This document shows, in pieces, positions 33,233 through 64,000 of a stretch of 64,000 bases of DNA. The position numbers were made by a program, and so were the translations under genes. The notes under the pieces are model-generated. The model ran no database searches, had not been told where the DNA came from, and was given only the letters and a program-made list of their open reading frames with translations. Positions within the stretch are counted from its first letter, which is position 1, and the number at the start of each line of letters is the position of its first letter. Source of the DNA: a virus. The stretch is taken from positions 62,001 to 126,000 of IMG/VR virus record IMGVR_UViG_3300044213_000107. One strand, 5' to 3'.

Positions 33233-35449
33233 TTATGCCATAACTGGTACAACTTCTGCTAGACCCGAATACTGAGTTCTCCGCATCCATTCTGCGGCAA
33301 CTCTGTTAGCATCGTGCTGACTATTGCCTATTCCACCAAATCTATATAACTCTTGGCCATTACCATTAAGTATCTTCCACGAACCAGTAAATGCACCTGA
33401 TGCTTGTTGTTGTCGAACATCTTGTGTTGATCCAGGTACACTCAACTCTCGACCAGTTTCAGAATCGCGAATACCAAACTGTGCACCGCTCAAATTGTTT
33501 GCTTGATAGCGTCTTAGTTGATCTAATGCCGCAGCATCATTTGATGAAAGGATCGATGCTACTCCTGGATTATTCTCCGACCTACGGAATATCTCATACC
33601 TTCTGGGAGCGGTTGCAGGAAGCTCTGGGAATAGATCAATGGTACCAGGGTCTGCATGTTGTCCTACGGCCTGCGGCTCACCTGCCGTGGCACGCCAAGG
33701 TGCTGGTGCAGTATCTCCGTTTTTGATATCGCCTGGTTGTCCACGGTGCTTTGTGGGATCGTGGCTGACCAATACTTGGAAATCAGGCCGGTATTCTCTG
33801 ACATATTGATCTTGTACTATTCCTGCATCTTTGCCATTGGCGGCATTAAAACGATATAGAACTTCAACATCGTATGGCTGATTAACATCACCAATTCGGC
33901 GATGTTGTCTAAACAAAATCCATTCACCTTCGGGATTACTACGACGACCGCCCACTACAATGCCTTCGCCGGGCTTGCGTAACTGGCGTTCCAGTTGTGC
34001 TTGTTTGATAAAACTACGCAATGCAGCCTTGGGCATTTCGCCGGCTACATATCGTGCAAAATACAGTATAGTATCTTTATTTTCTCCTTTGGGTGCTAGG
34101 AGTTTATACAGTTTCTTTAGATATTCTTCACGATGTAGTTCAGGTTTGACTGCAGCATCCAGGGCCACAACAAATCGCAACATGGTGTTTTCAATTTGAT
34201 CAAAGTTAACGTCCAACCAATCGCCACCAGCACTACGAAACTCAATGTAATTGCTTTTAACATTGATACTGGTGTATTTGTCCGTGGATGGAGCATGTAT
34301 GGCCCGGCTGGCAAATTCATCTAAGTGATTACGCATTTTGTCTAACAAACCTTGAGCTTCGTCGGGGTTTCCTTGCACACGGTTCTTTACTTTTTCTATG
34401 GCAGATTTACAATAATGATTGCTAGTACGACCGAACTTTTCTAGCACATATTGGTCGCCTAGCAATACTGCAAGTTTAACATAATCCAATTTGTAGCGTT
34501 CAAAGTCTGGAACACTGACATTGATGTGTAGACCGGTACTGTCGTTGGTGTAGCATCCATAACTTTTTGCCCAGGCTTTGACCTTTTTAAGTTGGTCAAT
34601 CATTTCATCAACTGGCATTGGGGGACTAACAAACTCCAGGCCCGATTCTGAAGATTCATCATCGGGACTTAGACTGCCATCAGGTTCAACCACATAGTGC
34701 CCGGGTTCGCGACGTCCACCGTGATAATTACGGCTGGCATTCACCGGCATGCCTATTGCTTTGCTAAAACTATTGGCTACTGCATCAATGTCTGCTTCGG
34801 CGTCATCATCGTTGTAACTGTTGGCCCAATAAGGCCACATCAAACCAAAATGGTTTTCAATGTCGGTCATGTAAGGATAGTTTTGCTGAAGCCAATTGCC
34901 CGAATCGTCAAAGAGATCTTGTTGTTGTTCTTCACGAAATTCATCATAAGCGTCATGTTTGGTACTGTCATTGTCTTCCCAGAGATGATTGGCATAGTCT
35001 AAGATATCGTTTTTACCTGGTGTGTAATCTTCGTCGTCGGCCTTGCCTAACCAGTCTTTGATTTGAGTTTCATCAATATTGTTGGCTACCCATTCCACAA
35101 AATAGTCAAACCCATCACGGTCCCACCGATTGTCGATTTGTTCATCGCAGTCTTCATAAAATTTTTGTTCCAATTCTTCTATCGCCCGCTGAACAGTTCG
35201 GGTACTATTGTAATCACCGTCATTGAAAAATTCGTATATGTCACTAAAACTGCGAGTTCTTGTGTCTTGGTCGTAGTCGGGTTCCTGTTCATTATCACCG
35301 TTGCTGCTTTTGTCAACTGGAACAATCATTTCAAACTCCATGCCAGCCCGGGCATCGATTTTCTTTGCCTGACTACGAAGGCTGGTGGGGCTCATGGCAA
35401 TTTCTGATAACTGCTGTTCTGATAATGGTTTAATGTCTGTGTAACGCAT
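33233..35449 (-). CDS. Large amidoligase-like protein (glutamine-synthetase fold, candidate)
   Basis: 738 residues. Middle part (about 230-470) carries GLEFVSPPMPVDEMIDQLKK, STGLHINVSVPD and SNYIEFRSAGGDWL, which match the putative amidoligase family (ATP-dependent peptide-bond formation). The N-terminus (MRYTDIKPLSEQQLSEIA) and acidic stretch resemble the other possibly head-packed proteins nearby. The C-terminal part has DVRQQ/PQAVGQ low-complexity linkers and a repeat-like domain (RRYEIFRRSENNPGVASI). Substrate unknown; could modify the cell wall or a protein. Late element 22 bases upstream with a small hairpin between. Confidence 0.65.
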   Translation of the reverse strand: MRYTDIKPLSEQQLSEIAMSPTSLRSQAKKIDARAGMEFEMIVPVDKSSNGDNEQEPDYDQDTRTRSFSDIYEFFNDGDYNSTRTVQRAIEELEQKFYEDCDEQIDNRWDRDGFDYFVEWVANNIDETQIKDWLGKADDEDYTPGKNDILDYANHLWEDNDSTKHDAYDEFREEQQQDLFDDSGNWLQQNYPYMTDIENHFGLMWPYWANSYNDDDAEADIDAVANSFSKAIGMPVNASRNYHGGRREPGHYVVEPDGSLSPDDESSESGLEFVSPPMPVDEMIDQLKKVKAWAKSYGCYTNDSTGLHINVSVPDFERYKLDYVKLAVLLGDQYVLEKFGRTSNHYCKSAIEKVKNRVQGNPDEAQGLLDKMRNHLDEFASRAIHAPSTDKYTSINVKSNYIEFRSAGGDWLDVNFDQIENTMLRFVVALDAAVKPELHREEYLKKLYKLLAPKGENKDTILYFARYVAGEMPKAALRSFIKQAQLERQLRKPGEGIVVGGRRSNPEGEWILFRQHRRIGDVNQPYDVEVLYRFNAANGKDAGIVQDQYVREYRPDFQVLVSHDPTKHRGQPGDIKNGDTAPAPWRATAGEPQAVGQHADPGTIDLFPELPATAPRRYEIFRRSENNPGVASILSSNDAAALDQLRRYQANNLSGAQFGIRDSETGRELSVPGSTQDVRQQQASGAFTGSWKILNGNGQELYRFGGIGNSQHDANRVAAEWMRRTQYSGLAEVVPVMA

Positions 35450-36787: not shown

Positions 36788-37396
36788 CTATTTGGCAATT
36801 ACTGATTCAGTATAATCGTAGTTGGCCATAAACCCCCAGGACTGTTGCAGTCTTCGTGGGCTTGCATCTGCATTCGGGATGATACGATGTACACGAGCTC
36901 CGTTGTTTGTATGGAATCGTGCCACTGGATCTTGACGATTTTCCAAGTATCCGCGGATTTGCTCGGGATCTGTTGGTGCAACTGTAAAATCTGTGCTTAA
37001 CGCAGGAATTGGACTCATAGTCACAAAATTACGTATAGCCGGCATGTTTTCTCGTATCCATGCGCTGGACATACGAATAATTTTTGCTCCGGGATTTGCG
37101 ATTATAGTAGTTGCATCAGTTTTAAACACACTATAAAAGATAGCGTATCTTGGCTCGGTATTGATGTTGCTGCCAGCATTTAGAATTTCATCAATAACAT
37201 CGGGTAGTGTGTTGGTATAAGCTACACACAAAACTGCTGCCGGGATCGAATTCTCAACAAGCATGAATATTTCGCGATCTTCGCTCATTCTGCGACTTAA
37301 CGGACGTTCATCAGTAATACTATGCACAGGATCTTGGTGCATGTATTCTAGCCAGTTGTTATTAAAATCATCAGAATGTAGTCGTTGAAGTGTCAT
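36788..37396 (-). CDS. Malonyl-CoA decarboxylase C-terminal-domain-like protein
   Basis: 202 residues. Blocks match the catalytic GNAT-like domain of malonyl-CoA decarboxylase: AIFYSVFKTDA, FVTMSPIPAL, DPVARFHTNNGARVHRI and ADASPRRLQQSWGFMANY. The Ser of SPIP and the His of ARFH, the catalytic pair in the family, are both present. The helical N-terminal domain of host enzymes is missing, so the protein is about half length. Expected reaction: malonyl-CoA to acetyl-CoA and CO2, which would lower fatty-acid synthesis or recycle malonate; activity of the short form is unproven. Confidence 0.7.
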   Translation of the reverse strand: MTLQRLHSDDFNNNWLEYMHQDPVHSITDERPLSRRMSEDREIFMLVENSIPAAVLCVAYTNTLPDVIDEILNAGSNINTEPRYAIFYSVFKTDATTIIANPGAKIIRMSSAWIRENMPAIRNFVTMSPIPALSTDFTVAPTDPEQIRGYLENRQDPVARFHTNNGARVHRIIPNADASPRRLQQSWGFMANYDYTESVIAK

Positions 37397-39301: not shown

Positions 39302-39892
39302 CTATCTTCGCTCCACAATACGATCCGCAAGTCCATACGCAACTGCTTGCTCTGCACTCATAAAGAAATCACGTTCCATATCTGCAGAAATTTCATCAAA
39401 TGTTTTTCCTGCACTATTGTGGCTAACATAAATCTGTGTAAGATTCTTCTTTAAAGCTAAGATTTCCTCAACTTGGATCAGCATATCTGTGGCTTGTCCA
39501 CGTGCGCCGCCCGATGGCTGATGAATCATGTGACGAGCATTTGGCAAGATCAATCGTTTCCCGGCAGCACCGGCGTTTGCAAGTAAGCTTCCCATACTGC
39601 AGGCCTGGCCCATAACAATGGTAGATACATCAGGCTTAATGAACTGCATAGTATCATAGATTGCCATGCCAGCAGTGACAACTCCACCGGGTGAGTTGAT
39701 GTAAAAGAGGATGTCTGCATCTGGATCTTCGCTTTCTAAAAAAAGTAATTGACTAACAACAAGACTAGCAGAATGTTCGTTAACATCTGTGTCTAGCATT
39801 ACAATGCGGTCTTTGAGTAAACGACTATAGATGTCGTAAGCTCGTTCACCGTTTGAAGTTTTTTCTAGTACGGTTGGTACAAAATTTGGCAT
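39302..39892 (-). CDS. clpP: ATP-dependent Clp protease proteolytic subunit
   Basis: 196 residues, normal length. Serine-protease triad: Ser99 ([11 protein letters not shown]), His124 ([11 protein letters not shown]) and Asp175 ([12 protein letters not shown]). [16 protein letters not shown] is the usual substrate-binding strand. ClpP forms a two-ring barrel fed by ClpX. clpX and clpS lie at the other end of the window and the tmRNA supplies a degradation tag, so a complete phage-encoded tag-and-destroy pathway is possible. Confidence 0.95.
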
Positions 39893-39931: not shown

Positions 39932-40417
39932 TCAGCACTTTGTAAAGTCTTGATGGCGAAACCAACGTCGTTGTCCGTGGCTTGTTTTAAGATGTAGCCC
40001 ATAATATTCAAATTCTTCTCGCCAGGCAAAAAAACTAGGTCCGTGCCCTCCCGAATACTCATGTATGTGCCCGCCCTGTGCCCAACGATGAATGTCCCAT
40101 TGCCACTGATGCACCATTTCATGAGCGAGTGTGTTTAAACACCATTGAGCGCAAAACCATTTATCGCTCATCCGTATTATGGTATGCGACCCAGACTCTT
40201 GTTCTTGATCTTCCCAACTGCAGTTTGCCCAGCATTTATGAATTATGCCTAATTTAATTTCGGGCTTTTGTAATTGATTTTTAAATAAATGACGATTAAT
40301 TATATTATATGCGTAGTTAATATCAGCGTCAGAAGGGCGGAATAATTTGCGTCTTTGATAGGTTTTTGGTGGCAGTGGTGCCAGCATAATTGAACGTATT
40401 GGATTGGGTCTAGCCAT
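39932..40417 (-). CDS. SprT-like zinc metalloprotease
   Basis: 161 residues. NTLAHEMVHQWQWD is the HExxH zinc motif; a further His (GGHGPSFFAWREEF) gives the third ligand, as in SprT/Spartan proteins, which in eukaryotes act on DNA-protein crosslinks. C-terminal zinc ribbon is absent. GGAGG ribosome site in the stem of an unusual hairpin upstream. Confidence 0.8.
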   Translation of the reverse strand: MARPNPIRSIMLAPLPPKTYQRRKLFRPSDADINYAYNIINRHLFKNQLQKPEIKLGIIHKCWANCSWEDQEQESGSHTIIRMSDKWFCAQWCLNTLAHEMVHQWQWDIHRWAQGGHIHEYSGGHGPSFFAWREEFEYYGLHLKTSHGQRRWFRHQDFTKC

Positions 40418-40420
40418 ATT

Positions 40421-40455
40421 AAAGCCTCCAAGGTATTTAGTACCAAGGAGGCTTT
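40421..40455 (-). promoter_or_regulatory. Hairpin with late promoter in the loop (terminator/promoter hybrid)
   Basis: Arms AAAGCCTCC..GGTA and TACC..GGAGGCTTT, two mismatches inside, loop CTAAA. The loop contains TAAATA and the 3' arm holds the GGAGG ribosome site of the SprT gene. Confidence 0.55.
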
Positions 40456-40478
40456 AATTTTATTACAAGTTTTTTACA

Positions 40479-46962: not shown

Positions 46963-47471
46963 CCTGTAATCTGTAATGTATATCTATCTTCTATGCCAAT
47001 ATTAGCTGCTGCATGTGGTAAGTCATATGCCCATTCAACAATATCACCTGCCGACCAATTAACTATGCCTTCGCCATTGACTTCACTGTAATGTCCCGGT
47101 TGCCAGTCTTCTAAAAAAACTACAGCACGACGAATGCGATGTTCCTGTCCCTGCAAGTTAAATATTTTAACATACTTAACATATAAATCAGAATGAGTTG
47201 GTAATATTGTACCAGTCTTCATTCGATAGTAACTGGTACCAATATCTTTCCAACTATATTTTGTAAACAAGTCAACAAATCTATAGTTCCACACAGGTTG
47301 TGTGCTACGCATATCGCACATTTCTCCTGTAAACTGTCCAGTATAGCCTTGCTCCCTCCATCGATTAACACTCGCTTGGTCATTAAAAGATTCTCGATTG
47401 TAGTCTAATGTTTTAAAATCATCGGTCCAGAATGGTGTTATTTTAAATTTACTGTAAGCGGGTGTTGCCAT
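46953..47471 (-). CDS. 2-oxoglutarate/Fe(II) oxygenase-like, Asp/Asn beta-hydroxylase type
   Basis: 172 residues from ATG 47471. ILPTHSDLYVKYV gives HxD, and DLPHAAANIGIEDRYTLQITG the distal His and the 2OG-binding Arg. Likely hydroxylates a protein or small molecule. The start overlaps the dehydrogenase end by 23 bases. Confidence 0.78.
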   Translation of the reverse strand: MATPAYSKFKITPFWTDDFKTLDYNRESFNDQASVNRWREQGYTGQFTGEMCDMRSTQPVWNYRFVDLFTKYSWKDIGTSYYRMKTGTILPTHSDLYVKYVKIFNLQGQEHRIRRAVVFLEDWQPGHYSEVNGEGIVNWSAGDIVEWAYDLPHAAANIGIEDRYTLQITGWV

Positions 47472-48690
47472 AATGAATAACCTTAACTCCTTGAATGTTA
47501 GATGAATATGTGCGCCACGGATCAACAATAACGCTGCCTTCTGAGATTTCGCAGTACATACCTTGTTGTTCGACAACTCCAGCATAGCCATAAGTGATTT
47601 GTTTATTATGAGCTAACAAAACAACACCCTTTACTGGCTTGTCTGGCGCCGGATCGCCTGTTAATGGATCAATGTATGTAGGTTTGTAACCAAATTCTTG
47701 ACAATAATATCCAACTAATAAACTATAACTACCTTCTGTGTATGCTACATCGGGTTTGTATGCTTTACCGTGAATATAAATCGGTAGGTCGTATAACTTT
47801 GCTTGTTCTACCAATGACTGTGCCATTAATCGTGCTTGTTTTTCTCTGGCATGCATGATAGCATCAAACAAATCATAACCTAAATCAAGTTCTTGGGCGA
47901 GATATCTTAATGCAATATTATCGCGCGGATGACACGGACCTGCATCTCCAAGTCCTGCAGTCATATACTTAGGCCCCATGATCCGCATATTAGATTTAGC
48001 AAGTGCTGCAGTCACAACATCAACATTAATGTTTCCTTGTCGAATAGCAACGTCTTGAATCATGTTAGCTAGACCAATTTTGGCACTAATGAATGTATTA
48101 TAAAATACCTTGATACATTCAGCTTCGTCCCAGGTTCCAACTTCGTAGCGCGGATCATTTTCCATTATAGTTTGATAAAATTCAATTAGTTCCTGTGCAT
48201 CACCGGTTACGGATCCATCTTCGGTTCCAATAATAACCATTTCGGGATTGACCATATCCCACTCTACTGTGCCCATGGCAATCAAATATGGGTTATATAC
48301 AAATCGTGCGTTGGTGATATGATTTCGCAATTGTTTTCTTGTAGTACCAGGCAACACAGTTGAAATCAAAACAATCAATTGATCTGCAACAGCATATTGA
48401 TTAATATCTTGCAAAACTTGATTAACTAATGTATAATCGAAGTCTTTATTAGGTAAATGTGTAATTGGCTGTTCGCCACCATAAACAGGGTCGTGTGGTG
48501 TTTGGACTGCAATAAAGACTATGTCTTTGCCAACTACTGCTTCTTTTAAGGTATTAGCTATTTTGATTTTGTTGCTGGTGCGTGGATAAATATCATACCC
48601 AGTAACATCGTGTTTGCTAGCCATAACTTCGGCGCAGGCCAAACCTAATTTTCCAATTCCTATAAACCCTACGTTTTTTCTATTACTCAT
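47449..48690 (-). CDS. UDP-glucose/GDP-mannose dehydrogenase-family protein
   Basis: 413 residues. N-terminal Rossmann NAD site (VGFIGIGKLGLACAEVM), the middle EAECIKVFYNTFISAKIGLAN helix and the catalytic-Cys block GDAGPCHPRDNIAL; C-terminal domain with GKAYKPDVAYTEGS. Oxidises a nucleotide sugar to its uronic acid with two NAD. It may supply a sugar acid to the glycosyltransferases here. AAGGAC ribosome site lies inside the divergent plus-strand gene. Confidence 0.85.
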   Translation of the reverse strand: MSNRKNVGFIGIGKLGLACAEVMASKHDVTGYDIYPRTSNKIKIANTLKEAVVGKDIVFIAVQTPHDPVYGGEQPITHLPNKDFDYTLVNQVLQDINQYAVADQLIVLISTVLPGTTRKQLRNHITNARFVYNPYLIAMGTVEWDMVNPEMVIIGTEDGSVTGDAQELIEFYQTIMENDPRYEVGTWDEAECIKVFYNTFISAKIGLANMIQDVAIRQGNINVDVVTAALAKSNMRIMGPKYMTAGLGDAGPCHPRDNIALRYLAQELDLGYDLFDAIMHAREKQARLMAQSLVEQAKLYDLPIYIHGKAYKPDVAYTEGSYSLLVGYYCQEFGYKPTYIDPLTGDPAPDKPVKGVVLLAHNKQITYGYAGVVEQQGMYCEISEGSVIVDPWRTYSSNIQGVKVIHYGNTRLQ

Positions 48691-49823: not shown

Positions 49824-50744
49824 ATGAAAATTAGTGATGTATTGAATGATGATATTTCTCGCCGTGGTTTTTTGCGTGGACTAGCAGGAGCTGCCGCAGT
49901 AGGTGCAACCGGGGCTCATGCTACTGCAAAATCTATTGTGTATCAAGTAGTAGAACCCGGTGACACTGTTTATTCAATTGCACAGCAAAATGGCATGCGG
50001 CCCGAAGATTTATTTCGGTTAAACAATCTAAACAAGAACTCTAAATTGATTCCCGGACAAAAAATACGTGTGCCGGATACATCAAAAATGATTCCTGATC
50101 CTGCGGTACAAATTCCCACTGATGAATTAGGAAACTTTATTTCTAGCATTGATCAACACAAAGTTGATCAAATAATGCATAGATATGTTACAGCCAAAGA
50201 AAAAGAATCGATCATCCCACCTCCCGCAGACTCACACAAAAAATCAACTGCTAAATCTCACGAATACAAGCCAGTGACAAACAGTCCGTTTGAGTTGGTG
50301 TTGCGCAATGTTGCCATGCGTGCAGGAATTATTAAATCAGAATTGGCTGCATTTATGGGGCAATGTGCACACGAATCAGCAAAATTTACCACAGTAAAAG
50401 AACTAGACAGTGGCAGTAAATATGAAGGTCGTCGTGACATAGGAAACATTTATCCCGGGGATGGACAAAAATACAAAGGTCGTGGATTTATACAAATTAC
50501 CGGCAGATATAATTATACAGAAGCGTCCAAGGATCTGGGAATAGATCTAGTCAATCATCCCGAGCTAGCCGAAAGACCTGATGTAGCAGCTCGTGTGAGT
50601 ATTTGGTTCTGGCAAAAATTTGTTCAACCAAAGATTAAAAATTGGGCCGATAATCGTGCAGTTACTCGTGTAATCAATCCAGGATTACGTGGTGAAAAAA
50701 ATCGAGAAAAATATACTCAAAGTTTTAAAACAGCCGGGCTATAA
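49824..50744 (+). CDS. Tat-signal LysM plus GH19-type lysin
   Basis: 306 residues. Twin-arginine signal ISRRGFLRGLAGAAA (RR 13-14) followed by AHATA cleavage region. LysM domain about 38-86 (VVEPGDTVYSIAQQNGM; GQKIRVPD). C-terminal chitinase-class-I/GH19-like lysozyme (165-306): AFMGQCAHESAKF with the catalytic Glu, YKGRGFIQITGRYNY and DVAARVSIWFWQKF. It would cut peptidoglycan for lysis or entry. Export of a folded lysin by the Tat route is unusual; alternatively the signal anchors it until release. Confidence 0.85.
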   Translation: MKISDVLNDDISRRGFLRGLAGAAAVGATGAHATAKSIVYQVVEPGDTVYSIAQQNGMRPEDLFRLNNLNKNSKLIPGQKIRVPDTSKMIPDPAVQIPTDELGNFISSIDQHKVDQIMHRYVTAKEKESIIPPPADSHKKSTAKSHEYKPVTNSPFELVLRNVAMRAGIIKSELAAFMGQCAHESAKFTTVKELDSGSKYEGRRDIGNIYPGDGQKYKGRGFIQITGRYNYTEASKDLGIDLVNHPELAERPDVAARVSIWFWQKFVQPKIKNWADNRAVTRVINPGLRGEKNREKYTQSFKTAGL

Positions 50745-52468: not shown

Positions 52469-53194
52469 TTATTGCATATTAGCAATGATAAATTCTGCTT
52501 CGGGAATTCTAGTATGACCGTTTTGACTACCGAGTACCACAACCCGGCGAATACCACGGTCAGTTTTTACAGTTAGTATAATACAACCACCAGCGGCATG
52601 TGTGGTTCCGGTTTTGCTTACAATAAATTCGTAGGTTTTTCCAATTAATGGATTTGTATTTTTGAATATTAAATATTTTTTTCGAAGCTGTATTTCTACT
52701 TTTGTTTGTTTTGCCGCACTAACTATTAACGGATATTGTTCTGCTTGATTTAATAACTTCAGTAAGTCGTTTGCTGTACTTGTATTTTCTGCGTTTAACC
52801 CAGATGCGTCGGCATAGGTAGTATTGTTCATGCCAAATTCACGAGCATACATATTCATGTCTGCAACACACCCTGCATAACTTCGTGTATAGTTTTTACA
52901 TAACATATCAGCGGCATGATTGTCACTGTGCACAAGAGTTAGGTAAATTAACTCCTGCCGTGTTAAACGTAGTTGTCGATTGTATTGAAATGTTTGATCT
53001 AGTGGTTGATTTGCTCGTAATACTGCAATAACTGTCATTACCTTTGTAACACTAGCAATTGACAATACTTCATCTCTGTTTTTACCATCCAATATTACGT
53101 TGTCTTGATCAGCAATCAGCCAAGACTTGGCAGTTAGATCTTTGGCCGACACTGCGCAACTTAGAAAAAATAACAAATATATTAGGTACCGCAT
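52469..53194 (-). CDS. D-alanyl-D-alanine carboxypeptidase/endopeptidase, peptidase S11
   Basis: 241 residues. Signal peptide MRYLIYLLFFLSCAVSA. Motifs in order: SIASVTKVM (SxxK, Ser48/Lys51), VHSDNHAAD (SxN) and VSKTGTTHAAGG (KTG). Periplasmic; trims peptidoglycan crosslinks or stems. Lacks the C-terminal PBP5 domain, like PbpG. Perfectly placed promoter for a leaderless mRNA. Could resist superinfection or help lysis. Confidence 0.88.
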   Translation of the reverse strand: MRYLIYLLFFLSCAVSAKDLTAKSWLIADQDNVILDGKNRDEVLSIASVTKVMTVIAVLRANQPLDQTFQYNRQLRLTRQELIYLTLVHSDNHAADMLCKNYTRSYAGCVADMNMYAREFGMNNTTYADASGLNAENTSTANDLLKLLNQAEQYPLIVSAAKQTKVEIQLRKKYLIFKNTNPLIGKTYEFIVSKTGTTHAAGGCIILTVKTDRGIRRVVVLGSQNGHTRIPEAEFIIANMQ

Positions 53195-53200
53195 GTGCGT

Positions 53201-53229
53201 ATTATAACAGATTACTTTGTACTTATCAA
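53201..53229 (-). promoter_or_regulatory. Sigma-70 promoter phased to a leaderless start
   Basis: TTGATA 53224-53229, N17, TATAAT 53201-53206, six bases, ATG 53194. Confidence 0.75.
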
Positions 53230-54222
53230 GTTATTTTCAAAGATTTCCCAGGCTCTTTGCCAAGTCCAACGTTGACTGCCTGCATGTACCTGTGTTCGGT
53301 CCATTTCTAGACATTTCTCAACTGCCACAGACAAACTCTCACAATCTGGATCTACCATGAATCCGGTTACGCCTTGGTCAACCACATCTGCTGGACCTTG
53401 GCATCGGTAGGCTGCCACCGGAGTACCGCAGGCCATGGCTTCAATCATCACAATACCAAATGTCTCCCATCGACTGGGAAATACAAATACTTCGGCATTG
53501 GCATAGTACTCAGCCAACTCTATGCCGGTTTTGAATCCAGTGAAATGCACTTCAGGATATCGTTTTTTGTAGGTTTCCAACATGGGCCCGTCGCCTACCA
53601 TGATTTTGAGATATCCTGGATAGTCCAACTGAAAAAAATCTTCCAGATTCTTTTCCTTGCTTACTCTGCTAACACACAACAGATATTTTCCTGGAAGATT
53701 TTTTCTAAGCTCAGGATCAAATATAGTTCGATCAACACCGCGAGTCCAGGGTATGATTTCACCATCAAAGCCGTGTGCACGCAGTTCTTTGACCATGCTG
53801 TCTGTGGTGGTCAAGACCTTGCCCGAGTGCTTGTGGAACCAGCGCACAAAACGCCAGGTGATCCATTCAGGAACGCCCAAGATCTTTTTCAACCCTTCAG
53901 GAAACTTAGTATGATAAGCGGTATTGTGCCTAACACCAACCAGTGATAGATATGCTCGAGCCCACAGACCCAAAGGACCTTCTGTTTGGATGTGTATATA
54001 ATCCGGAGCAATCTCCTCGATCTTCTCCCCAATATTGCTAGGCCAGGCCAATTTGACTTCGTTGTAGCCAGGGCAATCAATATAGCTGAAGCACCCGGGG
54101 TGCAGATTATGAACAATATAACCATCCCGTAACGCAAGCGCCTCAATATTTTTGTAAGTAGTAACGACACCATTTATTTGGTCAGGAAGATTATCCCCGA
54201 TCATTAGTATTTTCTTTGACAA
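53212..54222 (-). CDS. Glycosyltransferase, MgtA/Agt-like (GT4)
   Basis: 336 residues. N-terminal MIGDNLPDQINGVVTTYKN and APDYIHIQTEGPLGLWA, then VSRVSKEKNLEDFF and the EX7E motif in RWETFGIVMIEAMACGTP. This is the type that pairs with PlcP-like enzymes to make glycolipids from diacylglycerol. TTG start at 54222 inside the end of the homing endonuclease gene. A short older-looking copy of its first codons survives upstream of that endonuclease. Confidence 0.85.
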   Translation of the reverse strand: MSKKILMIGDNLPDQINGVVTTYKNIEALALRDGYIVHNLHPGCFSYIDCPGYNEVKLAWPSNIGEKIEEIAPDYIHIQTEGPLGLWARAYLSLVGVRHNTAYHTKFPEGLKKILGVPEWITWRFVRWFHKHSGKVLTTTDSMVKELRAHGFDGEIIPWTRGVDRTIFDPELRKNLPGKYLLCVSRVSKEKNLEDFFQLDYPGYLKIMVGDGPMLETYKKRYPEVHFTGFKTGIELAEYYANAEVFVFPSRWETFGIVMIEAMACGTPVAAYRCQGPADVVDQGVTGFMVDPDCESLSVAVEKCLEMDRTQVHAGSQRWTWQRAWEIFENNLISTK

Positions 54223-54832
54223 CTTTCCATCCTTTATGAATCATGACATCTCCTTTAACTAAATGCCGAACTGCTTTTGGTCTCAAATTATATTTTGTAG
54301 CAAATTCTAATTTAGATCCAGAGAATCTATTACCGTCTTTATGTTCAAACACATGAGAGGTTGGGTCATAATTGGGATTATTCATTCCGCTTTGATTTGG
54401 TCGATTATTTCTAAACTCTGAGTCTTGCCATAATTTCAATGAATTTTCTCTTTGTTTCTGTTTGTATTTCAATGAACTATATGTTGTTTTTCTTGCTTCT
54501 CGAATCTTATCCTTATATCCCGGTTGTAACCATAATTCCTTCATCCATTCCGTTGTATTACCATTACCTTCTTCGGGTTTAAGATTAGCCCACTCTCTTG
54601 AATTTACAATATTCCATAAATCACTATAATGTTTACCCCAATAAATCATTTCATCTCTACTTACACATTCTTTAATAACTTCAGTTGTTACATCATATCC
54701 GTGAACTTTGAGATGTTTTTTCCAATATTTGCCAGACCCAGGGTACTTGTTATAATCTTGTCTTGTAGTCTGACAGAGATATTTTAATCCTGTTTTATTG
54801 TGTGTTTTAACCAGCAGATAAATTGTTTTCAT
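54191..54832 (-). CDS. Homing endonuclease (GIY-YIG/NUMOD-like)
   Basis: 213 residues. N-terminus YLLVKTHNKTGLKYLCQTTR then KYPGSGKYWKKHLKVHGYDV is the form seen in phage GIY-YIG-type homing enzymes. C-terminal repeats (SGSKLEFATKYNLRPKAVRHL) are DNA-binding modules of NUMOD type. A mobile element inserted between the small membrane gene and the glycosyltransferase. Late element five bases upstream of the ATG. Confidence 0.75.
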   Translation of the reverse strand: MKTIYLLVKTHNKTGLKYLCQTTRQDYNKYPGSGKYWKKHLKVHGYDVTTEVIKECVSRDEMIYWGKHYSDLWNIVNSREWANLKPEEGNGNTTEWMKELWLQPGYKDKIREARKTTYSSLKYKQKQRENSLKLWQDSEFRNNRPNQSGMNNPNYDPTSHVFEHKDGNRFSGSKLEFATKYNLRPKAVRHLVKGDVMIHKGWKVVKENTNDRG

Positions 54833-54837
54833 ATCTT

Positions 54838-54843
54838 TATTTA
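54838..54843 (-). promoter_or_regulatory. Late promoter element phased to a leaderless start
   Basis: TAAATA plus five bases then ATG 54832 of the homing endonuclease. Confidence 0.6.
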
Positions 54844-54858
54844 TGCTAGACCGGACTC

Positions 54859-54915
54859 TCAGTGGCTAATACATGGCTCCGGCAGATTATCTGTGATGAT
54901 TAGAATTGTTTTCAT
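54859..54915 (-). pseudogene. Remnant of the glycosyltransferase 5' end
   Basis: 18 codons, MKTILIITDNLPEPCISH then stop. MKTILIITDNLPEP matches MSKKILMIGDNLPDQ at the start of the intact glycosyltransferase, and codons also match (GAT AAT CT. CC. GA.). It looks like the original start of that gene, cut off by arrival of the homing endonuclease. Confidence 0.65.
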
Positions 54916-54991
54916 TGATTGTTTCTTTCAGTGTCAATAGTAGAGTTAGTCCCACCCATAGTACGTACATGATAACTATAAAGTATTTCAT
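54887..54991 (-). CDS. Tiny single-span membrane peptide
   Basis: 34 residues (MKYFIVIMYVLWVGLTLLLT...). ATG overlaps the ATP-grasp stop (ATGA); its 3' half overlaps the glycosyltransferase remnant in another frame. Confidence 0.5.
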   Translation of the reverse strand: MKYFIVIMYVLWVGLTLLLTLKETINENNSNHHR

Positions 54992-55875
54992 TCGTTCATC
55001 CTAAATCTTATGTATTCTGTTAATTTGTCAGCTACATCAATTTCGCAATATTTTTCAAATCCACCAAAACCTGGATTACTATTTGCTTCACAAACAACAA
55101 AACCATTTTCTCCAAATAGTAAATCAACTCCAGCAATGTTTAATCCTAGTACTCGTGCAGTTTCAATGGCCAGGTACTCAATTTCTGGTGTGACTTCAAA
55201 ATTAGCACCTGTACCACCTCCGGTAATATTTGCACGAAAATCACCTTCAGGAGCTGTACGCTTCATGGCACCCAATACCCGCCCGCCAATTACAAACACA
55301 CGCAGATCTTCTCCTGGCCTAGCACTCATATACTCCTGTACAATCATTGTTTTTTTAGCGCCAAGCGTATCAATAAATTCCATTAATTTTTTATAATCTC
55401 TTTTACGTTCGCATAGATATACGCCTTCGCCGTAGCTGCCGGTGACCAATTTTACCACACAAGGAAATCCTATGTGTTGTTCAACTAGGCCGTCATCAAT
55501 AGGATAGCGTACCATCATGGTCTTGGGAATCGGTATGTTACTTGCGGCCAACCGTTGTCCTGTTCTTAATTTGTCACGAACTATATTAATGCTTACACTC
55601 GGATTAACGCACGGAACGCCCATTTGCTCAAATTGTCTAATAATTGCTAACTGAAATGGTAAAATACCAGCACCCAATCTTACTAAAACTAGATTTGGTG
55701 TTGGTAAGTCTTGCCCTTTGTATTTTACAGATTCTTGAAGATTTTTGCTGACTACAATGTCAAAGTCGTCAGGATGTGCAACTGTTGTGGTTATTCCTTT
55801 GCTGGAAAAACTATCTACTAGCCTGCTGGTTTCGTATTCATTACGTTCTTGTTTTGATATTATCAATACTGTCAT
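54988..55875 (-). CDS. ATP-grasp ligase, RimK family
   Basis: 295 residues. PIPKTMMVRYP, FPCVVKLVTGSYGEGVYLCE (ATP-binding loop), MIVQEYMS, DLRVFVIGGRVLGAMKR and FVVCEANSNPGFGGFE (Mg site) fit RimK, which adds glutamate to ribosomal protein S6, or related peptide ligases. With bS21 and IF-1 in the phage, ribosome modification is conceivable; with the amidoligase, peptide synthesis is another idea. Overlaps the PlcP-like gene by 35 bases. Confidence 0.85.
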   Translation of the reverse strand: MTVLIISKQERNEYETSRLVDSFSSKGITTTVAHPDDFDIVVSKNLQESVKYKGQDLPTPNLVLVRLGAGILPFQLAIIRQFEQMGVPCVNPSVSINIVRDKLRTGQRLAASNIPIPKTMMVRYPIDDGLVEQHIGFPCVVKLVTGSYGEGVYLCERKRDYKKLMEFIDTLGAKKTMIVQEYMSARPGEDLRVFVIGGRVLGAMKRTAPEGDFRANITGGGTGANFEVTPEIEYLAIETARVLGLNIAGVDLLFGENGFVVCEANSNPGFGGFEKYCEIDVADKLTEYIRFRMNE

Positions 55876-56620
55876 TTGATTGTGTCCATGTTACTATTTC
55901 CCAGGTGCCGTTATGATGTTCAACCAAAGCAGTACACGACTCGACCCAGTCACCATCGTTCATATAAGTTATATCATCTATGTATTTAATCTCAGCATGA
56001 TGTATGTGTCCGCAGATAACACCGTCATATCCACGCTTTTTACAATAATTTGCAATTGTAACTTCAAATTTAAACATAAAGTCTATGGCTTTTTTGACTC
56101 TGTGTTTAAGGTATTTGCTAAGGCTCCAGTAACCGAACCCCAAACGATGGCGGATCCAATTAAATCTGCTATTGACACCAAGAATGAAATCATATGCTTT
56201 ATCTCCAAGAAAACTCAACCACGGTGCCAATCTTGTAATACCATCAAACATATCTCCGTGCACCACAAGATAATGTCGGCGATCCACCCCAATGTGTTCT
56301 GTTTGATTGCATATCTCTACACTGCCAAACGTGGCGGCATAAGGCATCATTGGTCGTAAAAATTCATCGTGATTACCAGCTATGTAAACAACTCGTGTAC
56401 CACGTTTGGCATGACCCAATATACGGCGAATCACATTAGTATGGCTTTGCTTCCATCGAAGTTTGTTTTGTTGTATCTTCCAAGCATCAATTATATCTCC
56501 TACTAGATATAAAGTTTCGCAAGTATTGTGTTTAAGAAAATTGTTTAATTGCTCGGCCTTACAATCTTTTGTGCCAAGATGTACATCACTGACAAAGATA
56601 CTACGATAGGTTTTTTGCAT
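55841..56620 (-). CDS. PlcP-like metallophosphoesterase (LpxH superfamily)
   Basis: 259 residues. Metal motifs: SDVHLG (11-16), GDIIDAW (41), GNHDE (82-86), HGD (121-123) and GHIHH (204-208). YWSLSKYLKHRVKKAI and GDWVESCTALVE are typical of the PlcP group often annotated UDP-2,3-diacylglucosamine hydrolase. PlcP is a phospholipase C that removes head groups from phospholipids under phosphate stress, giving diacylglycerol for the Agt glycosyltransferase. The MgtA/Agt-like gene lies two genes downstream here. LpxH-like activity on lipid A precursors remains an alternative. Confidence 0.78.
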   Translation of the reverse strand: MQKTYRSIFVSDVHLGTKDCKAEQLNNFLKHNTCETLYLVGDIIDAWKIQQNKLRWKQSHTNVIRRILGHAKRGTRVVYIAGNHDEFLRPMMPYAATFGSVEICNQTEHIGVDRRHYLVVHGDMFDGITRLAPWLSFLGDKAYDFILGVNSRFNWIRHRLGFGYWSLSKYLKHRVKKAIDFMFKFEVTIANYCKKRGYDGVICGHIHHAEIKYIDDITYMNDGDWVESCTALVEHHNGTWEIVTWTQSNDSIDNIKTRT

Positions 56621-56625
56621 ACTAG

Positions 56626-56631
56626 TATTTA
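56626..56631 (-). promoter_or_regulatory. Late promoter element phased to a leaderless start
   Basis: TAAATA plus five bases then ATG 56620. Confidence 0.65.
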
Positions 56632-56668
56632 CGCAAAAACTTTTGGAGAAATATTACAAGTATATTAC

Positions 56669-56896
56669 CTATCGTTTGGTAGGATGAAAACTGTTGACTT
56701 CTCGCTGACCGTCTCGAACTTTTTTGGTGCAACTTATTCGTAAATCTAAATTGGTAATACGATCGCAATCACCGACATTTAAGGTCGCTATTGCCATACA
56801 TTGTATTTTTTCATTGCCGCGTAATCTTGCACAATCATTAATATCAATTGCGTGAGAAAATACAGGAATTAGTAAAATTACGAGCATGTAATACAT
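56669..56896 (-). CDS. Small secreted Cys-containing protein
   Basis: 75 residues. Signal peptide MYYMLVILLIPVFSHA, then four Cys (INDCARLRGNEKIQCMAIA; GDCDRI; ISCTKKV) in a helical layout, likely two disulfides in the periplasm. No family recognised. Confidence 0.6.
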   Translation of the reverse strand: MYYMLVILLIPVFSHAIDINDCARLRGNEKIQCMAIATLNVGDCDRITNLDLRISCTKKVRDGQREVNSFHPTKR

Positions 56897-56906: not shown

Positions 56907-56917
56907 CTTGAGACGTA

Positions 56918-56942
56918 AAAAAAGGCTCCGCAGAGCCTTTTA
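56918..56942 (-). terminator. Rho-independent terminator
   Basis: AAAGGCTCTGCGGAGCCTTT followed by T run, after the 307-residue gene; nearly the same sequence as the terminator at 20317. Confidence 0.75.
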
Positions 56943-56955
56943 AAATAGTAATTGA

Positions 56956-57879
56956 TTATGCTGGGATAAAATCAATACCAGTTCCGGCCAATACACCAGT
57001 TGTTGCTGGAGCGACGCCAACTAAACCAACAGTTTGTTGGAATGCGGTAATGTGTGCGGCTGCGGCTAACATAGCACCTTCAGTTGTAGCACCTGTTGCT
57101 AGTTGTGTAACATAAGGTAATGCTTGTGCTGGAGTTGGTGCAGTACCAACTACATTAGTATAAACATAGTTTACAAAACTTGCGTAATCACTTCCACCTG
57201 CGGCAGCGGCAAATACACTAGAACTTGCAATTGCTTGTGCTACTTGTGCGCTTGTTGAACCACTGTCTTCCATCTTGATGCCAAGACCTTCGTATGTAGT
57301 GTTAACCGTACCACCAAGACCTGCTTTAAGCAATGCATACACATCACCTGCGTGACCAGTAATGTCAAATGCAGTTGACTTGTCTGTGTAGTTAACACGT
57401 TGGTAGTTGTTTAAATTAAAACTTACCAATGTATCTAATGCACTTGTAACCTTAAGAATGTTATCTGCAGTATCATTTACTAAAGTATAGTCAGCACTTT
57501 TATCATTGAAAGTATATGTGTTTACTGCTGCAGTAGCGTCTGGAGTTACATTAACGATTGTTTGAACGATGCCGTTACCAACTGCACCTGTTCCAGCGGT
57601 GCCAAATCCTTTAATAGATCCACCTGTTCCAACGGCAGTTACAATTACTACATCGTTGTTTGCTGGTGCGGCTCCACCTAGGCTGGTTCCTGCAAGCGTG
57701 ATAGTGTCACCCAAGGCATAACCTGTGCCAAGATTTGCAGCTTCGATTGTGGTTGTATAAGCACCGTTTGTTTTTGTTACATCAAACTTAGCACCTGTGC
57801 CTGAACCTGATGTTGTGCCAGTTACGGCCGTGAAAGTTGAATTAATTGGGACTACCCCGATTGTTACTGTTGTTGTCAT
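56956..57879 (-). CDS. Gly/Thr/Ala-rich structural or secreted protein, DUF4214-like part
   Basis: 307 residues. Beta-rich N-half (GTGYALGDTITLAGTSLGG repeats resembling phage structural modules), then YASFVNYVYTNVVGTAPTPA, which recalls DUF4214-type repeats of bacterial surface or S-layer-like proteins. No signal peptide; C-terminus GVLAGTGIDFIPA. Strong AAGGAAA ribosome site and own terminator suggest abundant expression; a major decoration protein is possible. Confidence 0.55.
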   Translation of the reverse strand: MTTTVTIGVVPINSTFTAVTGTTSGSGTGAKFDVTKTNGAYTTTIEAANLGTGYALGDTITLAGTSLGGAAPANNDVVIVTAVGTGGSIKGFGTAGTGAVGNGIVQTIVNVTPDATAAVNTYTFNDKSADYTLVNDTADNILKVTSALDTLVSFNLNNYQRVNYTDKSTAFDITGHAGDVYALLKAGLGGTVNTTYEGLGIKMEDSGSTSAQVAQAIASSSVFAAAAGGSDYASFVNYVYTNVVGTAPTPAQALPYVTQLATGATTEGAMLAAAAHITAFQQTVGLVGVAPATTGVLAGTGIDFIPA

Positions 57880-62974: not shown

Positions 62975-64000
62975 TTATGTGTAAATTGGTTCAGTTTTAT
63001 ATTTAACTGTTTCAGCAGTTATTTGTATTTTTTTATAGCCGGCTTGTTTAATTTCGGATATTTTATACAAAAATGGTTGTAAAGTTCTCTCTATGATGCT
63101 TTTTAATGCTCTAGCACCTATTTTCATGCTTGCAGCTTCTTCCGCAATGGTTTTTACAGCTTCTGGTGTAAATTCTAATGCAACCGAGTCTGCTTCAAAA
63201 TAAAACTGCATTTGTTTAATTAAATTGTTTTTTGGTTTAATCAGTATACTAACAAAATCATCTAGAGTTAATTTATTTACAGAAACCAAAACAGGAAATC
63301 TACCTACAAATTCAGGAATCATTCCATACTGTATAAAATCTTCCCAGTCAGCGGTGTCAGAAGTTTTTATGTTATTAGTAGTTGATCTAAACCCTATGCC
63401 GGTTCCGCGGCATCGTTGTTCTATAATTCGATCTAGATCACTAAATGCTCCACTGGCTATAAACAGTATGTTTGTTGTATCTATATCAATTTGGTCCAAG
63501 CTAGGATGTTTTTTGTTATTGCCAATTGGTACTCTGCATACTGTACCTTCAACTAGTTTTAATAGTGCCTGTTGTACACCCTCACCACTAACATCTCGAG
63601 TAATACTAGGCCCTTCGCTTTTACGGCCAATTTTATCTATTTCATCTAAAAATACAATTCCGCGTTGGCATGCTTCTACATCGTAATCTGCTTCAGCAAA
63701 TAAACGAGCAATCATGGTATCTACATCATCGCCAACATACCCCGACTCGGTTAATGTTGTTGCATCGGCAATAACAAACGGTACATTCAAGTATCGTGCA
63801 ATAGTTCGTGCTAATAATGTTTTCCCTGATCCAGTTGAACCAAATAACAATATATTACTTTTTTCTAATTCTACACGACTGTTAAAAAATACACGTTTAT
63901 AATGATTTGTGACCCCGACACTCAATGCTATTTTTGCAGCATCTTGGCCAATTACGTATAAATCTAAAAACTGTTTTATCTTAACAGGATCTAATGCTCG
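62975..64000 (-). CDS. clpX: ATP-dependent Clp protease ATPase subunit ClpX (5' end beyond window)
   Basis: At least 341 residues; the frame stays open to the right edge, where it reads DPVKIKQFLDLYVIGQDAAK, a standard ClpX start region. Walker A GSTGSGKTLLAR, Walker B GIVFLDEIDK, EGTVCRVP, QRCRGTGIGF (position of the RKH/IGF region: IGF present) and sensor-2 IGARALKSIIER. The GVGS-type loop and tag-binding parts could engage the LAA end of the tmRNA tag. Whether the N-terminal zinc domain is present cannot be seen. Confidence 0.93.
   Translation of the reverse strand, partial: RALDPVKIKQFLDLYVIGQDAAKIALSVGVTNHYKRVFFNSRVELEKSNILLFGSTGSGKTLLARTIARYLNVPFVIADATTLTESGYVGDDVDTMIARLFAEADYDVEACQRGIVFLDEIDKIGRKSEGPSITRDVSGEGVQQALLKLVEGTVCRVPIGNNKKHPSLDQIDIDTTNILFIASGAFSDLDRIIEQRCRGTGIGFRSTTNNIKTSDTADWEDFIQYGMIPEFVGRFPVLVSVNKLTLDDFVSILIKPKNNLIKQMQFYFEADSVALEFTPEAVKTIAEEAASMKIGARALKSIIERTLQPFLYKISEIKQAGYKKIQITAETVKYKTEPIYT

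Follow-up and report, generated by a model that had tools for sequence, protein, structure and literature searches.

Lipid remodelling by the phosphoesterase PlcP and the glycosyltransferase (GT) Agt is known from several bacteria, including S. meliloti, Phaeobacter MED193, Pelagibacter HTCC7211 and P. aeruginosa (PA3219-PA3218), and phosphate genes preceded by Pho boxes are known from cyanophages. To our knowledge, the phosphate genes described in phages so far are restricted to uptake (pstS, phoA) and regulation. Here we analyze a 64,000-nt stretch of viral DNA (the window; positions 62001-126000 of the 260,723-bp IMG/VR virus record IMGVR_UViG_3300044213_000107) in which a plcP-like gene and an agt-like GT gene are encoded on the minus strand. 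The genes, their families, their linkage, a conserved promoter and the sharing of that promoter with pstS are observed, and we consider it probable that they constitute a phage-borne, phosphate-responsive lipid-remodelling operon; binding by host PhoB, the enzymatic activities and the benefit to the phage are what we infer beyond those observations.

The phage locus resembles the bacterial PlcP-Agt systems in its plcP-agt gene order, in its PlcP-type residues, in a GT4 enzyme with diacylglycerol (DAG)-contact residues and in a Pho-box-like promoter. It differs from them in that the phage proteins appear to form clades of their own, a Glu replaces the catalytic Asp of the GT, the GT position is often taken by a GT2/GT21 protein, insertions (an ATP-grasp gene or an open reading frame, ORF, that is probably mobile) sometimes occur, and pstS is a recurrent neighbor. 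A non-Agt GT behind plcP has a bacterial parallel in the processive GT21 enzyme mentioned in PMC4796936 (citing Devers 2011), from which the phage GT2 differs in being ~240 aa long. The PhoB-controlled cyanophage genes treated in PMC10976474 (P-SSM2 pstS and genes of S-PM2d) also place a host-type Pho box on phage phosphate genes, but that box is of the cyanobacterial type, whereas the one analyzed here is Proteobacteria-like, stands at a fixed distance from a TAAATA element and precedes membrane-lipid enzymes. LpxH, the UDP-2,3-diacylglucosamine hydrolase, shares its fold and metal-site residues with phage PlcP, but carries GNRD instead of GNHD and falls in a separate clade, and phage PlcP scores far under the LpxH cut-offs. 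No earlier report of a phage lipid-remodelling operon with a Pho-box-like promoter was found in the open-access literature (bioRxiv not covered), and within the reach of those searches the combination of both elements in a phage-borne operon is new.

Organization of the locus

In order of transcription, the minus strand encodes a 75-aa ORF, plcP, a RimK-family ATP-grasp gene, a 34-aa ORF, a 213-aa ORF and the GT4 gene, with the following features:

56669-56896, minus strand: signal-peptide-like 75-aa ORF upstream of plcP
56653-56670, minus strand: degenerate direct repeat of Pho-box type, AGGTAATATACTTGTAAT, departing from YTGTMAYNNNNYTGTMAY at 2 positions, its start 50 bp before the plcP ATG
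56626-56631, minus strand: TAAATA element, 21 bp 3' of the Pho-box-like repeat
55841-56620, minus strand: plcP-like gene, its predicted product a metal-dependent PlcP-family phospholipase C (Pfam Metallophos, E 2.3e-10)
54988-55875, minus strand: RimK-family ATP-grasp ligase gene (E 2.8e-47), overlapping plcP by 35 bp
54887-54991, minus strand: 34-aa hydrophobic ORF, possible membrane peptide
54191-54832, minus strand: 213-aa ORF directly before the GT4 gene, homing-endonuclease-like by eye, without a Pfam match
53212-54222, minus strand: agt-like GT4 glycosyltransferase gene (Pfam Glycos_transf_1, E 1.7e-28)

A previous, sequence-only reading of the window had proposed a PlcP-Agt-like pair at this locus. 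Both genes are ORFs where it placed them, the two motifs it quoted occur in the 55841 protein, and the ATP-grasp gene and small peptide that it put between the pair are those at 54988-55875 and 54887-54991. The 213-aa ORF (54191-54832) and the 75-aa ORF (56669-56896) went unmentioned in it.

Recurrence of the plcP-GT pair in viruses

Searches of IMG/VR located PlcP relatives on at least 598 viral stretches and relatives of the GT on 302. The phages with the pair are large, and for the majority the only source is metagenomic sequence. Each scan retained its best 80 loci, the rows of which are not independent, since several contigs are near copies. Linkage was counted on the 160 loci of two IMG/VR PlcP scans, with the PlcP proteins of the window and of phage Mosig as queries, and a locus was deemed testable if it extended at least 1500 bp behind plcP (132 loci). 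A GT follows plcP in 120 of these 132, within 300 bp in 110 of them; 78 are GT4 proteins and 42 belong to an unrelated GT2/GT21 type (Glycos_transf_2 with a Glyco_transf_21 match; ~240 aa). The converse holds for scans seeded with the partners: PlcP lies less than 300 bp in front of the GT in all 71 loci with room when the GT2 is the query, and in front of it in 70 of 74 when the window GT4 is. A wider partner tally (251 loci) mixes scans made with GT queries and was not used for linkage. The plcP-GT pair is a recurrent viral module, seen more often than chance would produce.

On an 81-row tree of viral PlcP, parsimony calls for 17 switches of partner type, no fewer than 8 of them on starred branches, a count inflated by the dereplication of rows within each partner type. 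Bacterial loci show the same gene order, with an Agt-type GT directly behind plcP in 34 of 80, and agt is the commonest plcP neighbor in the survey of PMC4796936, which reports other GTs elsewhere. One viral contig of 524,565 bp (L052 and L117) carries two plcP copies, one followed by a GT2 and the other by a GT4.

We regard plcP as a phage auxiliary metabolic gene of cellular type: the record of the window encodes a terminase (218736-219332, record coordinates), and the isolated phages Mosig EXVC030M and S-SRM01 encode PlcP homologues, both labelled LpxH. The plcP of Pelagibacter phage Mosig EXVC030M (L002), 49% identical to that of the window and annotated as UDP-2,3-diacylglucosamine hydrolase, lies beside a putative phosphate transporter gene.

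A PlcP-type phosphoesterase

The product of 55841-56620 is predicted to be a PlcP-type phospholipase C; hydrolysis of phosphatidylglycerol and phosphatidylethanolamine would follow from family membership, and manganese dependence would be expected of such an enzyme. Its identity to P. aeruginosa PlcP (L243, with Agt1 as neighbor) is 53.5% over 241 residues and that to an S. meliloti PlcP (L242) 46.9%, as against 21.7% over 120 residues for E. coli LpxH. The P. aeruginosa plcP/agt1 pair corresponds to PA3219/PA3218 according to PMC8528852. At the S. meliloti locus, the neighbors of plcP encode a LuxR-type regulator and an acyl-homoserine-lactone synthase; we take SMc00171 to be the name of that PlcP.

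A 107-row PlcP/LpxH tree was built by a quick method, its LpxH rows comprising one from E. coli and 13 from genomes in which PlcP relatives occur as well. The sequence-only reading had named grouping with true LpxH as the outcome that would overturn its PlcP assignment; the tree instead separates the 14 LpxH rows from the 93 PlcP and phage rows at an SH-aLRT of 100, with the window protein on the PlcP side. This position, the identity to the P. aeruginosa enzyme and the GNHD motif uphold the assignment. Of the phage rows, 46 form one group (support 93), near which the lone bacterial row is Methylotenera (L170), on a long branch; among the 107 rows the tree identified no donor for phage plcP and reached no host assignment. 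Eight residues of the metal site and the GNHD His (D12, H14, D42, N83, H84, H121, H205 and H207) are kept in 49 of 49 phage rows. The motif itself reads GNHD in 48 phage rows and GNHE in one, GNHD in 44 of 44 bacterial PlcP rows and GNRD in 14 of 14 LpxH rows. LpxH equivalog models score the window protein at 51.5 bits (cut-off 134) and 37.2 bits (cut-off 190.35). Among solved folds, LpxH structures come nearest to an AlphaFold2 model of the protein (mean pLDDT 78.8), which is to be expected because no solved PlcP structure turned up in our searches of the PDB. We considered an LpxH identity for this protein and rejected it on the equivalog scores, the identities, the tree split and the GNHD/GNRD difference. 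An attempt to estimate dN/dS for plcP yielded no value, as dS was saturated.

An Agt-like glycosyltransferase

The GT encoded at 53212-54222 is predicted to glycosylate the DAG that PlcP would produce. Its identity to P. aeruginosa Agt1 is 38% over the length of Agt1, and its model (pLDDT 93.0) adopts a GT-B fold, with BshA, MshA, PimA and sucrose-phosphate synthase as nearest solved folds. Mutational work on the Pelagibacter enzyme GTcp, as given in PMC8231724, identifies essential residues that include R190, K195, T257, F258, G259 and E264 at the donor site, DAG contacts at H104, R163 and W320, and a catalytic Asp256. Equivalents of the donor-site and DAG-contact residues are present in the window GT (H104, R161, R186, K191, T254, F255, G256, E261 and W321) and in all 118 other phage GTs, among which the DAG-contact equivalents (H104, R161 and W321 in the window) are invariant. 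The proposal that this gene encodes an Agt/MgtA-like enzyme therefore stands as regards overall identity and the donor and DAG-contact residues, and fails at the catalytic Asp, replaced by Glu253; the protein probably belongs to a phage sister clade.

In a 104-row GT tree, the 34 bacterial and 70 viral proteins occupy the two sides of a single branch (support 98), and the Asp/Glu state needs 3 changes. This tree, built without an outside GT4 outgroup, suggests that the phage GTs are a phage-specific sister clade of Agt. For the GT, dN is 0.16-0.17 against a dS of 1.0-1.3.

A conserved Pho-box-like promoter

Upstream regions (320 bp, both strands, dereplicated loci) were scanned with the strict E. 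coli Pho box, allowing up to 3 mismatches. Such a box precedes plcP in 16 of 116 freshwater-type viral loci, as opposed to 35 of 995 upstream regions of control ORFs (p 2e-5); for bacterial plcP the figures are 16 of 77 loci and 18 of 444 controls. The label "freshwater-type" here denotes relatives of the window PlcP and not the origin of samples. The strict matches suggested a relaxed variant, YTGTMAY-N4-YTGTMAY, which we scored with up to 2 mismatches within 100 bp. It was found upstream of plcP in 88 of 116 viral loci (46/55, 27/41 and 15/20 by originating scan) against 33 of 1021 control upstreams, in 9 of 44 Mosig-type loci against 4 of 199 controls, and in 17 of 77 bacterial loci against 17 of 464. 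These enrichments are partly circular because the variant was picked after strict matches in the same loci, a circularity that affects the pstS and whole-record tests less.

Among the 88 boxed viral loci, the distance from the box to the next TAAATA is 11 bp in 36, 21 bp in 30, 22 bp in 18 and 7 bp in 2, and 2 loci have no TAAATA, so that box and TAAATA are mostly one or two DNA turns apart. What is prominent in the consensus of boxed loci is the repeats and TAAATA, most of the spacer being unremarkable. Twenty whole records were then scanned for the box plus TAAATA at the three main spacings, with the pattern read backwards as control. Matches numbered 9, 8 and 7 for spacings of 11, 21 and 22 bp, against 1, 0 and 0 for the backward pattern. 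Of these 24 matches, 21 precede plcP (16) or pstS (5, one of them known only from a signal peptide at a contig end), and 2 overlap another match at the same promoter (G011, G051). Of the three that precede neither gene, two, from different phages, lie before one and the same 147-aa gene, and the third before an SprT-like gene in the record of the window. Fourteen of the 20 records have the site at plcP, that of the window included (G000:118626-118669). The sequence-only reading had advised looking for a PhoB box upstream of the pair: what is there, in the window and most of its relatives, is the relaxed variant with TAAATA (2 mismatches in the window); the strict E. coli consensus is absent upstream of the window's plcP.

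Counts from a sigma-70 and terminator scan were close to shuffle means, and the T4 late promoter TATAAATA occurs 6 times in the window against 7.85 expected, with no occurrence at plcP. By eye, the plcP set is set apart from the next gene (56956-57879) by a hairpin with a T run behind it, at about 56917-56942.

The SprT-like gene (39932-40417) is preceded at 40434-40478 of the window by the second box plus TAAATA (22-bp spacing, 1 mismatch), which may be a chance match. The 147-aa gene (G017:8510-8947 and G002:143315-143752; L453, L454) has a weak match to the malonyl-CoA decarboxylase (MCD) C-terminal domain and a Pho-box-like promoter in both phages. As an MCD/GNAT-like candidate for a third regulon member it was rejected, 9 of the 11 relatives examined being without a box. 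The window has an MCD-family gene of its own at 36788-37396.

Sharing of the promoter with pstS

Among 311 viral PlcP loci, 28 have a PstS-like gene no more than 2.6 kb away from plcP; none of the 80 bacterial loci does. The PF12849 domain occurs in 5 of 33 long virus records, and in 4 of those 5 it is within ~1.5 kb of plcP. The box is present in 17 of 21 distinct phage pstS upstreams, 14 of them with TAAATA exactly 11 bp behind it, and the variant CTGTAACAAATTTGTAAT is found with 0 mismatches ahead of a Pelagibacteraceae pstS (1 of the 3 bacterial pstS examined). Because pstS shares the plcP promoter and often adjoins plcP, a reading in terms of phosphate is favored. That host PhoB can bind phage promoters has a precedent in cyanophages (PMC10976474).

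Proposed function and alternative explanations

On the favored reading, phosphate starvation would lead host PhoB to bind the Pho-box-like repeat ahead of plcP and recruit the polymerase, turning the operon on. PlcP, judging from its family, would split phosphatidylglycerol and phosphatidylethanolamine of the inner membrane into DAG and a phospho-headgroup, and the phosphate set free would become available for phage DNA. The Agt-like GT4, or elsewhere the GT2/GT21 protein, would glycosylate the DAG and thereby keep the bilayer intact, and some phages may add PstS under the same promoter for uptake of outside phosphate. If true, this would constitute a phage pathway drawing phosphorus from the host's own membrane. 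A 260,723-bp genome holds ~521,000 phosphorus atoms, an estimate by which membrane phospholipid would represent a sizeable local store. Such a pathway would also tie viral infection to membrane-lipid composition and phosphorus cycling, and would make it testable how a virus keeps the cell intact while dismantling its phospholipids. A bolder version, in which host PhoB governs a Pho regulon made up of phage genes that mines phospholipids and installs a glycolipid foreign to the host, as the Trp-Glu in place of Thr-Asp in the GT clade might suggest, strikes us as doubtful.

Several observations weigh against the favored reading. The loci come from best-80 lists with redundant contigs, and 12 of the 132 testable PlcP loci have no GT behind plcP, close relatives of phage Mosig among them. 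The strict E. coli consensus was not found near the plcP of the window, where the best site has 5 mismatches (window-wide, 3 matches against 6.85 expected), and the window's own box is degenerate, with 2 mismatches to the variant. Among the 33 long records scanned, that of the window has no PF12849 pstS. Predicted Pho boxes in a cyanophage are described in PMC10976474 as unreliable without binding tests. Lastly, the catalytic Asp256 of GTcp corresponds to Glu253 in the window and to Glu in 111 of the 118 other phage GTs, and in GTcp itself the D256E change took more than 90% of the activity (PMC8231724). Most phage GTs have Trp-Glu where Agt has Thr-Asp, and the Asp is present in 33 of 35 bacterial plcP-neighbor GTs. 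The loss of activity in GTcp D256E indicates that the phage GT may use another sugar or acceptor, and because of this Glu we have named the protein Agt-like and do not file it as Agt.

The alternative that survives best, which we nevertheless hold to be unlikely, is that a phage regulator recognizes the box, or that the box merely belongs to a phage late-type promoter, and that it is no PhoB site. In these contigs TAAATA often precedes ORFs other than plcP as well (174 of 1021 control upstreams), the box spacing is unusually fixed, and the variant reads TGTAAY, as opposed to TGTCAT in E. coli. Against this, the same boxes stand ahead of pstS, the variant recurs at the Pelagibacteraceae pstS, and even the strict E. 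coli box shows enrichment upstream of viral plcP.

Somewhat harder to sustain is the idea that the same enzymes serve another end, remodelling the envelope to exclude superinfecting phage, change adsorption, counteract a defence or set up lysis, with phosphate release as a by-product. Envelope genes close by (Peptidase_S11, 52469-53194; LysM/GH19 endolysin, 49824-50744) speak for it, as do the lipid changes that alter phage adsorption in Caulobacter and Ruegeria, according to PMC6445935 and PMC9938194. An envelope role alone, however, predicts neither a Pho-box-like promoter common to pstS nor pstS as a recurrent neighbor. We give an equally low rating to a GT that acts on an acceptor other than DAG (LPS, capsule or a small molecule) and adjoins plcP for co-regulation only. 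Trp-Glu at the catalytic position of most phage GTs and the presence of BshA, MshA and sucrose-phosphate synthase among the nearest folds are in its favor, but the invariance of the DAG-contact equivalents argues otherwise, and an unrelated GT2/GT21 in the same slot fits a shared DAG acceptor.

A lipid A function of the LpxH type for the 55841 protein, coupled to an LPS role for the GT, has in its favor the leading fold matches and the annotations in Mosig and S-SRM01, but is largely refuted by the equivalog scores, the tree and the GNHD/GNRD difference. No more credible is a misfiling of bacterial contigs as viral, to which the computational nature of IMG/VR and a Terminase_6N match in only 23 of 42 records examined lend some color, and which is largely refuted by the terminase in the window's record, a T4 portal in 5 of 22 records, the PlcP homologues of isolates Mosig EXVC030M and S-SRM01 and the confinement of viral GTs to one side of their tree. 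The LpxH label of those two isolates suggests that lpxH entries in viral gene catalogues may be plcP; a viral metatranscriptome of Lake Baikal lists one lpxH (PMC9611531).

Accessory and neighboring genes

Of 251 viral loci that extend far enough, 20 carry an ATP-grasp gene no more than 2.6 kb from plcP: 18 of 133 with GT4, 0 of 107 with GT2 and 2 of 11 with neither. The RimK-family gene is a repeated, optional guest of the cassette (L005, L028, L034, L048, L090 and others), often overlapping plcP. The window protein reaches the cut-off of the NCBIfam rimK_fam subfamily model (226.6 bits, cut-off 143.4) and not that of the S6-modifying equivalog; conceivably, the glycolipid is a substrate of this ligase.

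The 213-aa ORF had no Pfam match even at E 10, and the only relatives found were hypothetical proteins of Vibrio phages. Judged by eye, it looks like a free-standing, homing-endonuclease-like mobile gene. A relative occupies the same plcP-GT junction in L016 (2819-3448), in a different context.

Further along the window lies a gene whose product might provide the GT with UDP-glucuronate:

47449-48690, minus strand: UDP-glucose/GDP-mannose dehydrogenase family protein

The record of the window has two PF00984 UDP-sugar dehydrogenase matches, this one and another at 1887-2177 of the record, and PF00984 occurs in 12 of 33 long records. One of these dehydrogenases could supply UDP-glucuronate to the GT, or they may serve other pathways.

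The Peptidase_S11 gene, PBP7-like (D-Ala-D-Ala endopeptidase), is directly behind the GT, and such a gene is also found near some relatives. The endolysin-like protein combines LysM and GH19 domains with a twin-arginine-type signal. Elsewhere in the window there are genes for a ClpP-type protease (39302-39892) and a ClpX/AAA-type ATPase (62975-63925), and a 738-aa protein (33233-35449) shows an Amidoligase_2 match.

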